DNA of 64,000 nucleotides from Gammaproteobacteria bacterium (GTDB lineage Bacteria > Pseudomonadota > Gammaproteobacteria > Thiohalomonadales > Thiohalomonadaceae), in the NCBI GenBank assembly GCA_026196575.1, contig JAPHSX010000001.1:62001-126000 (forward strand). Reading direction: 5' to 3'. Below are positions 19,633-25,056 of this stretch, piece after piece (position 1 is the stretch's first letter; every line of letters begins with the position of its first letter). Made by a program: the position numbers and the translations under genes. The notes below the pieces were generated by a model. The model worked only from the letters and a program-made list of their open reading frames with translations, had not been told where the DNA came from and did not search any database.

Positions 19633-20237
19633 TGGCGTGTCTCCCTTTGCGGTAGCCGGGTGCCGAGGGTGAAGTCGACGCGGCCTGCCTCCTTCTCACT
19701 GCGGGCAATCACCACGCTGTGAAAGGCGGTGCCGCTGAAGGCCTCCTCACTGGCCAGTCGCTGCAGATAGCGTGGCACCGCATCCGCCTGGGAGGCACTG
19801 CCCTGCAACTCCACCTGTTGTCCATATTGCAAAAAGATGCGCCGCAGCCAGAGCTCAGGCAGATCCTGGCGCGCCAGTCCGGTAAGGTGACGGGAGAAGT
19901 GGACCTCCTCCTCCAGCCCCAGGGCGGTGACCGCCGCCAGCAGGGTGCGCTTCTGCTGCAGCGTGGCACGGGCCGCCTCGATGCGTGGGGCGAGGGAGCC
20001 ATCCTTCGCCCGGGGCGGGTATTGCGCCAGCAGTTCGGCGTTGCGCTTGAGGTGGTGGTCACGTTGCGCGCCGGCCTGCGTGAACTGCTCCTGTAGCCCC
20101 TGGGTCTGCAATACAGTGTAGAGATAGATGAGCGCCAGGCCTACCAGCACCAGCAGATTGCCCTGCAACAGGGTCTTGGCGGAGAAGATCTTCTCCTGTT
20201 TGCGCAGGATCGGCTGGTAGAGATTGACCTGCTGCAT
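19629..20237 (-). CDS. PilN-like MSHA biogenesis protein (MshI2)
   Basis: This 202-residue protein resembles PilN/GspL C-terminal regions and is often called MshI2 in MSHA clusters. It starts MQQVNLYQP, the short N-terminal motif through which PilN proteins bind PilM-type partners, followed by a transmembrane helix at about 26-43, a coiled coil to about 115 and a periplasmic alpha/beta domain. The ATG at 20237 shares its A with the mshI stop (TGATG), so translation is coupled to mshI, its probable partner. Confidence 0.85.
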   Translation of the reverse strand: MQQVNLYQPILRKQEKIFSAKTLLQGNLLVLVGLALIYLYTVLQTQGLQEQFTQAGAQRDHHLKRNAELLAQYPPRAKDGSLAPRIEAARATLQQKRTLLAAVTALGLEEEVHFSRHLTGLARQDLPELWLRRIFLQYGQQVELQGSASQADAVPRYLQRLASEEAFSGTAFHSVVIARSEKEAGRVDFTLGTRLPQRETRQ

Positions 20238-21238
20238 CAGAGCGCCCTCTTCTCTTCGCGCAGCGCCGCGCCGATGGCGAACAGACACTGCGCCTGAAGC
20301 TGATCACTCAGGTTCTCCTCGCACTCCAGCAGGGCGTTGAGGTCGAGCAGGCGTACCGGCACCCCGAGGTTACCGCCAAGATAGCCCATCATACCGGGGA
20401 TGCCCTCCTCCATCGGCGCCACCACCAGGCCACTCACCGGCGGCAGCGAGAAGTGACTCTCGTAGTAGTCGAGGGAGCGCTGAACCTCCAGCACGATATT
20501 GTCAAAGGCCTGCCGCAGCGCCGCGGGCATGGAGGGCTCCTCGCCGTCGAGGAGCAGCTCCTCCTCGTCGGTGGGGGCGTGGAGATGGCCCATCAGCTGC
20601 TCCAGCCCCAGGTCGATGCGCCGTGACAGGTAGAGCGTGCGGTCGCGGGTAATCACCAGCATCCCCTTTCGCCGGCCGATATAGAGGGTAGCGACACCGC
20701 TCTTGTCCTCCGGCAGCAGCGCGGCGATGTTGCGCAGTGCCAGTTCGGGGATGTCGATGGCGGTGAGGTTAAGACCGGCCCCCTCCAGCAGGTCGATCTG
20801 CTGTTGCACGGTGCTGGTGCGTGAGGCGACCACATACATCAGTTTGGGGCGGCCGCGCTCCTTCTGCCCGGGAATATCGAAGACGTCGATAATGGCGTCA
20901 TCGACATGAAAGTCGATCAGATCCTTGATGCGCCAGCGCACGGCGGCCTTCAGCTCCGCCGCCTCGACGACGGGCGACTCCACCAGCAACAGCGAGAAGC
21001 TGTCCTGCGGGGCGACGCTGACACAGGCGCTGGCCTCCAGCTGGTACTCCTTGCCAAGTTGCTGCAACAGTTGGGGATCGGTGGCGCCGGTGGCGTGGGG
21101 GGTAAAACGGCAGAGGGCAAGGTGCGGCGGCTGCCCCTCCGCGGCAGGTACGGTGCGGGCGAGGGCAATCCCCTCTTCGCGCAGGTCGACGCCGGTCTGT
21201 CCAGTGATACGAACCCGTTTTTTAAGAAAAGAAAACAG
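20237..21238 (-). CDS. mshI: MSHA biogenesis protein MshI (PilM-like), CTG start
   Basis: MshI is the PilM-like actin-fold protein on the cytoplasmic side of the MSHA assembly platform. The conserved N-terminus FSFLKKRVRITGQTGVDL is encoded upstream of every in-frame ATG, GTG or TTG: the first such codon (TTG 21067) would remove about 57 residues, and an in-frame stop lies at 21272-21274. The likely start is CTG at 21236-21238, seven bases after a GGAGG ribosome site, giving 333 residues. An ATG at 21252 is in another frame. A frameshift in the six-A run is the alternative. The body holds ALARTVPA, the DLIDFHVDDAIIDVFDIPG segment and the FDNIVLEVQRSLDYYES helix. It heads the msh operon. Confidence 0.82.
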   Translation of the reverse strand: MFSFLKKRVRITGQTGVDLREEGIALARTVPAAEGQPPHLALCRFTPHATGATDPQLLQQLGKEYQLEASACVSVAPQDSFSLLLVESPVVEAAELKAAVRWRIKDLIDFHVDDAIIDVFDIPGQKERGRPKLMYVVASRTSTVQQQIDLLEGAGLNLTAIDIPELALRNIAALLPEDKSGVATLYIGRRKGMLVITRDRTLYLSRRIDLGLEQLMGHLHAPTDEEELLLDGEEPSMPAALRQAFDNIVLEVQRSLDYYESHFSLPPVSGLVVAPMEEGIPGMMGYLGGNLGVPVRLLDLNALLECEENLSDQLQAQCLFAIGAALREEKRAL

Positions 21239-21409: not shown

Positions 21410-22294
21410 TCACCAGAGAATCCCCAGGAGGATCGCCAGACCAAACAGAATGTTGCTGCGGTAGGCACGGGTGGCACCGCTCCCGGGGTGACGCGTCAGC
21501 AGCCACTGCTGATAGGGCAGCAGGGTGAGCGCCAGCAGCAGGCCAAGGTCGAAACCGACCCCCAGCCCGGCCTGGTTGCCGAGCAGCCACAGGGCGATCA
21601 CGGACAGCAGCTGAAGCAGCAGCACAACCACCCCGCCGCGATCCCCCAACAGGGTGAGCAGCGACCCTATCCCGACCCGCTCCTCGTAATCACGCCGCGG
21701 CATGGTGTAGAGCAGGATATTGGCGGTAGCCCACAACAGGGTGGCGACAAACAGCAGCCAGAGACTCCGGGCGGCGATACCGGGGACAAGCAACTGCGCC
21801 ATCGCCACCATCCAGGCAAAACAGAGTCCCAGGTAGGGCTGGGTGAGCAGGGTACGCCGCTTGAGGCGGGGGTAGCCGAACAGCAGCGCCAGCGCCACGC
21901 CCCCCCAGGGCAGTACGGCGGCATCAAGCAGCAACAGCAGCAGGGTGGCGATGGTCAACAGGGCGACGAACAGGCGCCAACCGTCACGGCGGCTGACCAG
22001 GCCACGCGCGATGAAGGACTCCGGTGCCTCGGGCAACAGCGTGGCATCGCGCAGGTCGTTATAGACCCAGGCGGCGCAACGCACCGCCGTGGCCGCCAGC
22101 AGCAGCGCCGCCAGCGCGCCATTATCGGGGGCACCGGGCGCGAGGGCCACGGTCCACAGCGCCGGCAGCAGCAGCAATATCAGGTCGACGGGGCGGTGCA
22201 GGTGGCAGATGTGCAGGTAGGGGCGCAGCGCATGGCGCCAGCGTGGCAGGTCATGCAACAGGGGTTGCAGCGCGGCTAGCGGGGAGCGGCGCAC
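21410..22294 (-). CDS. ubiA: UbiA-family prenyltransferase with eroded active-site motifs
   Basis: Position after ubiC points to 4-hydroxybenzoate polyprenyltransferase UbiA, an integral membrane enzyme. The 294-residue protein is strongly hydrophobic with about eight to nine helices and opens HICHLHRPVDLILLLLPALW, as UbiA does. The first Asp motif is partly kept (NDLRD), but the third Asp is Leu and the downstream RT.NRPL.SG segment is absent (ESFIARGLVS). The second motif, normally YD..YAMVDRDDD, reads NILLYTMPRRDYEE, so both expected metal-binding Asp residues are missing. GTG at 22294 after AGAGG is the best start and overlaps ubiC by 19 bases. It may have changed substrate or lost activity. 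Confidence 0.75.
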   Translation of the reverse strand: MRRSPLAALQPLLHDLPRWRHALRPYLHICHLHRPVDLILLLLPALWTVALAPGAPDNGALAALLLAATAVRCAAWVYNDLRDATLLPEAPESFIARGLVSRRDGWRLFVALLTIATLLLLLLDAAVLPWGGVALALLFGYPRLKRRTLLTQPYLGLCFAWMVAMAQLLVPGIAARSLWLLFVATLLWATANILLYTMPRRDYEERVGIGSLLTLLGDRGGVVVLLLQLLSVIALWLLGNQAGLGVGFDLGLLLALTLLPYQQWLLTRHPGSGATRAYRSNILFGLAILLGILW

Positions 22295-22875
22295 GGCGGC
22301 CTCTGTGTCAGGTCGGGAAGGAAAAACTCGCTGACCAGCAGGGGTTGGCCGCGCAGGGTGAAGACGGAACGCCGCCCCCAGATCTCCTGCGCCTTGCGGT
22401 GAGCGGCGGCATCGGTGCCGGCCAGCGCAAGGGCAAAGAGACGCTTGCCCCGACCGACTCGGGCCACCTCGACGGCAGAGCGGTGCATCGTCGGATCGGC
22501 AAACAGCACGCTGCCCAGCGGGCGATTGCCCAGCAGGGCCAGCTGGCGCAATCCGCCGCGCAGCGAGGGGAGCGGGATCACGGTGCGGGCAAAGACCCAC
22601 GGTTGCTCATCGCAGCGCAGGCGAACCTGGCGCACCAGCGCCAGCTCCTGCGGCGGACGATGCAGGGCGCGCGCCTCGCTGAGCAGCGGCGGCTCCATGC
22701 GCTGCGACACCACCTCGACACGAAAGCTGCCGGGGCAGGCACGTTGCAGACGCAGGGTGAGCGAGGAGCGATCCAGCAGCCAGTCACGCCACTGCCCGGG
22801 CAGCTGGCCGCGACTGAGGCGAAAGCCGTTGCGCCACACCGGTTCGCCCGCATGTTTACCAAAGTTCTCTTTCAT
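22276..22875 (-). CDS. ubiC: Chorismate lyase UbiC
   Basis: UbiC splits chorismate into pyruvate and 4-hydroxybenzoate, the ring precursor of ubiquinone. The 199-residue cytoplasmic protein has W-R-D-W-L-L-D-R-SSLT near residue 30, the active-site arginine region PWVFARTVIP, the LGNRPLGSVLF segment and the closing EIWGRRSVF...SEFFLP with its conserved glutamate. recG lies 55 bases upstream and ubiA overlaps its 3' end, so it is in the middle of recG-ubiC-ubiA. Confidence 0.93.
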   Translation of the reverse strand: MKENFGKHAGEPVWRNGFRLSRGQLPGQWRDWLLDRSSLTLRLQRACPGSFRVEVVSQRMEPPLLSEARALHRPPQELALVRQVRLRCDEQPWVFARTVIPLPSLRGGLRQLALLGNRPLGSVLFADPTMHRSAVEVARVGRGKRLFALALAGTDAAAHRKAQEIWGRRSVFTLRGQPLLVSEFFLPDLTQRPPCAAPR

Positions 22876-22929: not shown

Positions 22930-25056
22930 TTATACATCGCCGTAGCGCTGCCGCTCCCCCAACCAGCGCTCCAGCAGCAGGGTGACCTGCTGCGGATACT
23001 CCTGCAGCAACCGTTGCGCCGCCACCCCGACCGGCGCCAGCAGCGCCTGATCGCGCTGCAGGTCGGCGATGCGCAGCTGCAGCATGCCGGTCTGGCGGGT
23101 GCCCAGCACCTCGCCGGGGCCGCGCAGCTCCAGATCCTTGCGGGCGATGACAAAGCCGTCGTTGCTCTCGCGCAGCACCCCCAGCCGCTCCCGCGCCTGC
23201 TGTGAAATGGGTGGATGATACATCAGGACGCAACTGCTTTTCGTGCTGCCGCGCCCAACCCGCCCGCGCAGCTGATGCAGCTGTGCCAGCCCCAGCCGCT
23301 CGGCGTTCTCGATGATCATCAGGCTGGCGTTGGGTACATCCACCCCCACCTCGATCACCGTGGTGGCAACCAGCAGCTCCAGCTCACCCTGTTTGAAGGC
23401 GTTCATCGCCTGCTCCTTCTGCGCCCCCTTCATGCGCCCGTGAATCAGCCCGATGCGCAGCTGCGGCAGTTGCTGGCGCAGCTGCACCACGCTCTCCTCG
23501 GCGGCCTGGCACTGCAGCGACTCCGACTCCTCGATGAGGGTGCAGACCCAGTAGGCCTGACGCCCCTCGGCACAGGCGGCGGCGACCCGCTGCACCACCT
23601 CATCGCGGCGCTCGTCGCTGATTGCCACCGTCTCCACCGGGGTGCGCCCCGGTGGCAGCTCGTCGATGACGGAGAGGTCAAGGTCCGCATAGGCGGTCAT
23701 CGCCAGGGTGCGGGGGATGGGGGTGGCGGTCATGATCAGCTGGTGCGGGTGGCTGCCGTCGGCCTGCACCCCTTTCTCGCGCAGCGCCAGGCGCTGGTGT
23801 ACGCCAAAGCGGTGCTGCTCGTCGACGATCACCAGGCCGAGGGCGCGGAAGGTGGCCTCCTGCTGAAACAGGGCGTGGGTGCCGACGGCAACGACCGCCG
23901 TCCCGCTCTCGATGGCGGCGAGCATCTCGCGCCGCGCCTTCGCCGTGAGGCGACCGGTGAGCCAGGCGACCTTGAGCCCCAGCGGCTCCAGCCAGCCGCG
24001 CAGGCTCTGGTAGTGCTGCTCGGCCAGCAGCTCGGTGGGGGCCATCACCGCCGCCTGCAACCCGCTCTCCACCGCCTGCAGCGCGGCCAGGGCGGCGACA
24101 ATGGTCTTGCCACAGCCGACATCGCCCTGCACCAGCCGCTGCATCGGGGTTGGCTGTTGCAGGTCGGCGCGGATCTCGTCGAGCACCCGTTGTTGCGCGC
24201 CGGTGAGGGCGAAGGGGAGGCGGGCCTGCAACTGCGCCACGAGGGGGCCGGGCGCCCTCAGCGCCGGGGCCACGTGGAGACGCTGGCGCTGGCGCAGCAG
24301 GCGCAGGGAGAGCTGGTGGGCCAGCAGCTCCTCGAAGGCGAGGCGTTGCTGTGCCGGGTGGCCCCCCTCACTCAATTGCGACAGGGCGATATCGGGGGTG
24401 GGGCGGTGCAGACTGAGCAGTGACTCGCGCAACCGCCCCATGCCGGATGGGAGCAGCGCCGTGGGGATAAGGTCGGGCAGAGCCAGCGCCCCCTCCTGCA
24501 ACAGCGTCAGTGCCTGGTCGATGAGCTTGCGCAGCCCCGGCATCTGCAACCCCTCGGTGGTGGGATAGATCGGGGTGAGGTGCTCCTCCACCACCGCCTC
24601 ACTACCCGCCGCCCCCGGCGCCAGGCGACGAAACTCCGGGTGTACCATCTCCAAAGAGGTGACGCCGCTGCGCACCTCGCCAAAACAGCGCAGTCGGGTA
24701 CCGGGGGAGAGACTCTGCTGCTGCGCGCTGTTGAAGTGGAAGAAGCGCAGGGTGAGGCCGCCGCTGCCATCACTGATGTGGGTAAGCAGCATGCGCCGCC
24801 GCCCGAATTTGACCTCACTCCCCTGCACCTCGCCCTCCACCACCACCTCGTCGCCGGGACGCAGGGCGCCGATGGGGGTGATACGGGTGCGATCCTGATA
24901 ACGGGAGGGGAGGTGGAAGAGCAGATCCTGCACCGTCTGAATGCGCAGCCGTTGCAGCCGCTCGGCCATGCTCGGCCCCACCCCCTTGAGGGTGGTGACG
25001 TCGAGCCGGTGGGCCGGCGTGGCGGTGCTGGCGCTACTACCGTAGGCGGGGCTCAC
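22930..25056 (-). CDS. recG: ATP-dependent DNA helicase RecG
   Basis: RecG remodels stalled replication forks and branch-migrates Holliday junctions. The 708-residue protein has a helix-hairpin-like start (TTLKGVGPSMAERL), the wedge OB domain at about 60-160, Walker A GDVGCGKT at 311-318, DEQH box at 412-415, motif III MTATPIPRT and motif VI QLRGRVGR. The start is GTG at 25056; there are 15 bases between the stop of the M48 gene upstream and this start. Belonging to the gmk-rpoZ-spoT...recG block supports the call. Confidence 0.97.
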   Translation of the reverse strand: MSPAYGSSASTATPAHRLDVTTLKGVGPSMAERLQRLRIQTVQDLLFHLPSRYQDRTRITPIGALRPGDEVVVEGEVQGSEVKFGRRRMLLTHISDGSGGLTLRFFHFNSAQQQSLSPGTRLRCFGEVRSGVTSLEMVHPEFRRLAPGAAGSEAVVEEHLTPIYPTTEGLQMPGLRKLIDQALTLLQEGALALPDLIPTALLPSGMGRLRESLLSLHRPTPDIALSQLSEGGHPAQQRLAFEELLAHQLSLRLLRQRQRLHVAPALRAPGPLVAQLQARLPFALTGAQQRVLDEIRADLQQPTPMQRLVQGDVGCGKTIVAALAALQAVESGLQAAVMAPTELLAEQHYQSLRGWLEPLGLKVAWLTGRLTAKARREMLAAIESGTAVVAVGTHALFQQEATFRALGLVIVDEQHRFGVHQRLALREKGVQADGSHPHQLIMTATPIPRTLAMTAYADLDLSVIDELPPGRTPVETVAISDERRDEVVQRVAAACAEGRQAYWVCTLIEESESLQCQAAEESVVQLRQQLPQLRIGLIHGRMKGAQKEQAMNAFKQGELELLVATTVIEVGVDVPNASLMIIENAERLGLAQLHQLRGRVGRGSTKSSCVLMYHPPISQQARERLGVLRESNDGFVIARKDLELRGPGEVLGTRQTGMLQLRIADLQRDQALLAPVGVAAQRLLQEYPQQVTLLLERWLGERQRYGDV

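Follow-up and report, generated by a model that had tools for sequence, protein, structure and literature searches.

We analyzed the gene for a UbiA homologue, here called UbiA2, and its surroundings in a 64,000-nucleotide stretch (the window) of the genome of a gammaproteobacterium belonging to a family of sulfur bacteria that contains Thiohalomonas. The locus comprises the following genes:

20237 to 21067, minus strand: PilM_2/MshI-like gene, the downstream neighbor, also bordering the ubiC-ubiA slot in this family and in some further members of the class
21410 to 22294, minus strand: UbiA2, a UbiA-fold paralogue with an incomplete metal site (294 aa, GTG start; PF01040, TIGR01474, AlphaFold2)
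22276 to 22875, minus strand: ubiC, encoding chorismate lyase, the sole copy in the genome (PF04345, 107 bits; active-site Arg and Glu conserved)
22930 to 25056, minus strand: recG, the upstream neighbor of ubiC-UbiA2 in every family member with UbiA2

Translation of UbiA2 starts at the GTG at 22294, upstream of which stands AGAGG, and the start overlaps the ubiC stop by 19 nt. The first-pass annotation placed a UbiA homologue at 21410-22294, and the open reading frame, the coordinates and the motif that it described are all as reported there. UbiA2 is homologous to UbiA over its full length and, with 108.2 bits against PF01040 (gathering score, 34.2), is a member of the UbiA superfamily; against TIGR01474, it scores 137.9 bits, which is half of the equivalog cut-off of 275.45 and places it outside that family. 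The AlphaFold2 model (pLDDT 90.3, pTM 0.85) has ten helices and an intact UbiA membrane fold. The nearest solved fold is that of the Aeropyrum UbiA homologue (4od4_A; TM 0.73/0.78, probability 1.00), and the fold matches also include HMGCR-bound UBIAD1 (8djk).

The gene order recG-ubiC-UbiA2 is found in all carriers, often followed by the mshI-like gene. In other families of the class, 64 of 76 sampled loci have, next to UbiC, a UbiA with a canonical score, and the complete recG-ubiC-ubiA-mshI order is present in G143, G196, G150 and G038. Because canonical UbiA lies beside UbiC in these other families, UbiA2 holds the ancestral ubiA slot, in agreement with the original observation that the gene stands where ubiA should be; canonical ubiA fills the same position after ubiC in other gammaproteobacteria. 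There is one UbiC per genome, which rules out a second ubiC paired with a true ubiA, and the intact active-site Arg and Glu rule out a degenerate UbiC. In other genomes of the class, two ubiC matches carry one in-frame stop each (G102:C48:10697-11188, TAA; G172:C196:28444-28941, TGA).

To compare the catalytic motifs, we aligned UbiA2 to E. coli UbiA and, in addition, used approximately 150 fetched canonical UbiA sequences. Residue numbering rests on reference sequences of UbiA and UbiC from E. coli that we take to be correct; for UbiC, it presumably runs one higher than the numbering customary in the literature. The relevant features in UbiA2 are as follows:

21680 to 21721, minus strand: former motif 2, NILLYTMPRRDYEE (residues 192-205), with I193, R200 and E204 in place of E. 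coli D184, D191 and D195
21857 to 21862, minus strand: K145 and R146 (E. coli K136 and R137), kept here and variable among relatives
22013 to 22045, minus strand: shortened loop past motif 1, ATLLPEAPESF (residues 84-94), in which E. coli D75 is deleted and R80 and R84 are replaced
22046 to 22060, minus strand: motif 1 remnant NDLRD (residues 79-83; E. coli N67-D71)

In the window UbiA2, the motif 1 pattern NDxxDxxxD is incomplete: N67, D68 and D71 of E. coli UbiA are kept as N79, D80 and D83, but the last Asp, D75, falls within a three-residue deletion, and nothing remains of the R..R signature, R80 and R84 corresponding to E89 and S93. The DxxxD of motif 2 (D191 and D195) is absent, its positions being occupied by R200 and E204. 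Thus, the loss of the motif 2 Asp pair that had been noticed in the sequence stands, as does the loss of the third Asp and the basic signature of motif 1, of which NDxxD survives.

These losses are a property of UbiA2 in the family rather than of one genome. In an alignment of 208 rows, which counts some loci more than once, 181 rows have exactly N-D-D-D-R-R-K-R-D-D-D at the 11 positions compared, and every full-length departure from this pattern is a UbiA2 copy from the same family. None of the 13 UbiA2 copies has a complete metal site. Both motif 2 Asp residues are lost in all copies except one, which aligns a single Asp; the positions read R/E, H/H or G/D, and the motif reads HLQQH in G008, G014, G017, G018 and G019. 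Motif 1 reads ND, CD, AD, HD or LG or is deleted (G004), its loop segment has 25-26 residues in 12 copies and 18 in one, compared with 29 in the canonical proteins shown, and the equivalents of R80 and R84 are missing from nearly all copies. Filling of the site by other Asp residues is ruled out: the alignment of UbiA1 and UbiA2 copies from relatives, which had been proposed as a check, places no consistent replacement there. In a quick tree, UbiA2 forms one clade and the canonical UbiA of the family (UbiA1) another, with an SH-aLRT of 99 each, the exact placement being unsure because of long branches. Most likely, the motifs were lost once, before the family diversified.

The genome in question (2.74 Mb, 100% complete) encodes three proteins of the UbiA superfamily. 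A canonical UbiA1 with both motifs complete is encoded on contig C62 and scores 337.9 bits against TIGR01474 (cut-off, 275.45), so that the second true ubiA envisaged in the first-pass annotation does exist. The neighborhood of UbiA1 is not conserved throughout the family and gives no functional hint. The third protein, encoded on contig C32, resembles decaprenyl-phosphate phosphoribosyltransferase. It shares the superfamily and the genome with UbiA2 but, unlike UbiA2, belongs to another subfamily, lies away from ubiC and is not degenerate. Its gene (L003 1396-2280) is gammaproteobacterial and is followed by an overlapping open reading frame for a small membrane protein (977-1441). UbiD and UbiG are also present; with the single UbiC and the canonical UbiA, these steps of the pathway are covered without UbiA2. 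Given the canonical UbiA, ubiquinone synthesis is independent of UbiA2, and metal-dependent prenyl transfer by UbiA2, which had been predicted to fail, is neither expected nor needed. It is very improbable that UbiA2, as a weakly active reserve for UbiA1, still prenylates 4-hydroxybenzoate via alternative ligands. The window UbiA2 has D202 and E204 near the motif 2 position and keeps NDxxD; however, relatives with HLQQH or with motif 1 deleted are without even these, the equivalents of R80 and R84 are lost in nearly all copies, and canonical UbiA1 is present in all carriers.

Of the 20 genomes of the family, 13 have a clear UbiA2 orthologue, and each of these carriers encodes a canonical UbiA at another locus as well; among them, no relative was found whose sole UbiA has this motif, a case that would have spoken against a loss of function. 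Genome G002 has one further, much decayed copy (L046 6722-7696), which scores 20.5 bits against the Pfam UbiA model, below the cut-off, still lies directly after ubiC and is possibly at the last stage before loss. Four family genomes (G005, G006, G012 and G013) have ubiC and no UbiA2, G009 lacks a UbiC match, and the genome of G003 is incomplete. The absence of UbiA2 from the four UbiC-bearing genomes and the almost unrecognizable copy in G002 indicate that UbiA2 is not essential to the pathway. In G012 (L068), recG-ubiC-mshI is kept and UbiA2 alone is missing; in G005 (L066), G013 (L067) and G006 (L069), recG was not found beside ubiC.

Full-length UbiA2 frames are open in all 13 genomes. Using alignments trimmed to the gene, with the upstream ubiC part removed, we obtained dN/dS values (Nei-Gojobori) of 0.067-0.479 in nine pairs, with bootstrap upper limits of ≤0.66; several pairs have a dS near or above 1, and their values are therefore rough. 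For the Thiohalomonas pair G011/G016, UbiA2 has 94% identity and a dN/dS of 0.067, compared with 91% and 0.072 for UbiA1. UbiA2 is, thus, maintained by purifying selection, and the 12 other intact orthologues together with the dN/dS values rule out a sequencing error or pseudogene in one genome. At the same time, UbiA2 evolves approximately 3-fold faster than UbiA1 (mean distance, 1.89 vs 0.60). The co-evolution signal is weak, a purely descriptive mirror-tree analysis giving UbiA2 a partial r of 0.37 with UbiC and 0.56 with UbiA1. UbiA2 also has residues of its own:

21467 to 21469, minus strand: R276, invariant in UbiA2 and variable in UbiA1 of the same genomes
21509 to 21511, minus strand: Q262, invariant in UbiA2 and variable in UbiA1
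22067 to 22069, minus strand: W76, present in 12 of 13 UbiA2 copies; canonical UbiA has Cys (99-100%)
22184 to 22198, minus strand: HRPxD (residues 33-37), a new family signature, with D37 in 13 of 13 UbiA2 copies

At the position of D37, canonical UbiA has Gly (19 of 19 family UbiA1 and ~100% of 135 others). The invariant polar residues of UbiA2 are D37, R72, R206, Q228, Q262 and R276. The N-terminal helix, the old lid loop (ratio, 0.34) and a short C-terminal loop show the least conservation when measured against UbiA1, and the C-terminal helices show more; this pattern is one of changed constraint and not of free drift. In summary, UbiA2 resembles the 4-hydroxybenzoate polyprenyltransferase UbiA (TIGR01474, PF01040) in its full-length homology, its fold and its ancestral slot after ubiC, but it is without the motif 2 Asp residues, the third Asp of motif 1, and R80 and R84, and it has gained D37 and W76.

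Its fast evolution, its loss from several genomes, the near-unrecognizable copy in G002 and the differences between genera in what replaced the old metal site would all fit a decaying relic, i.e., a ubiA that became redundant after a second copy arose and has since drifted, its frames staying open by chance or because shortening them would affect ubiC. This explanation, which may apply above all to lineages such as G002, is unlikely for UbiA2 in general: all 13 frames are open over their full length, dN/dS is well under 1 in all nine pairs, Thiohalomonas UbiA2 is constrained as much as UbiA1, an intact fold is predicted with confidence, and there are new invariant residues where canonical UbiA carries others. 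The conservation beside ubiC across the family, the purifying selection and the new invariant residues speak for a structural or regulatory role rather than for decay. The first-pass annotation had considered either a changed chemistry or a structural role next to UbiC, and only the second of these is favored here. An enzyme that performs another, or a metal-free, reaction in the same cavity would be consistent with the retained UbiA fold, with NDxxD and K-R in the window UbiA2 and with the six invariant polar residues. Such an activity is improbable, because the former metal site differs from genus to genus; moreover, no one consistent new site replaces the old active site across the copies, and the lid loop is one of the regions with the least conservation compared with UbiA1. 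The existence of a second ubiA and a new role beside UbiC, which had been posed as alternatives, do not exclude each other.

Altogether, our findings support well that UbiA2 is a conserved pseudoenzyme. With a probability of roughly 0.6, we suggest that it died once as a prenyltransferase, in the ancestor of the family, and has persisted since then as a membrane pseudoenzyme whose role is most likely that of a non-catalytic partner in the hand-off from UbiC to UbiA, as suggested by its gene position and its new invariant residues. According to this model, UbiA2 would derive from the ubiA of an ancestral recG-ubiC-ubiA locus; a second ubiA at another locus would have taken over 4-hydroxybenzoate prenylation in the family ancestor; and the metal-binding Asp residues would then have been lost, while the fold was retained. 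Through overlapping translation, UbiA2 may be made in step with UbiC. It might anchor UbiC at the membrane and accept its 4-hydroxybenzoate; because E. coli UbiC is product-inhibited (PMC8042324), a membrane partner taking up this product would make sense. Alternatively, UbiA2 might be a regulatory subunit paired with the catalytic UbiA, comparable to the Asp-motif-poor HexA in its pairing with HexB. We only tentatively entertain the more specific idea of a membrane subunit dedicated to hand-off or regulation between UbiC and the catalytic UbiA, and the adjacency to ubiC could be mere inheritance from the ancestral operon.

There are partial precedents for such a partnership. In the hexaprenyl diphosphate synthase HexA/HexB of Micrococcus luteus, a catalytic prenyltransferase is assisted by a subunit other than that with the Asp motifs of catalysis (PMC7839719). 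HexA/HexB is a soluble prenyl chain synthase, whereas UbiA2 has a predicted membrane UbiA fold and its partnership is only proposed. UBIAD1 retains its catalytic motifs, is eukaryotic and has a position in its pathway unrelated to that of UbiA2. Its complex with HMG-CoA reductase is an example of a UbiA-fold membrane protein that binds another enzyme (PMC9314443). Literature searches, which mostly covered journals outside subscription, returned no UbiA pseudoenzyme.

Two Asp-rich motifs define the UbiA enzymes, and UbiA2 is a natural experiment on non-catalytic uses of the UbiA fold. In genomes with UbiA2, automatic annotation that relies on gene position or on the Pfam score would name the wrong gene ubiA. 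If the partner role holds true, UbiA2 would offer a testable way to learn how 4-hydroxybenzoate gets from the soluble UbiC to the membrane; and if it is a hand-off or regulatory subunit, ubiquinone synthesis would gain a non-catalytic subunit at its first committed steps.
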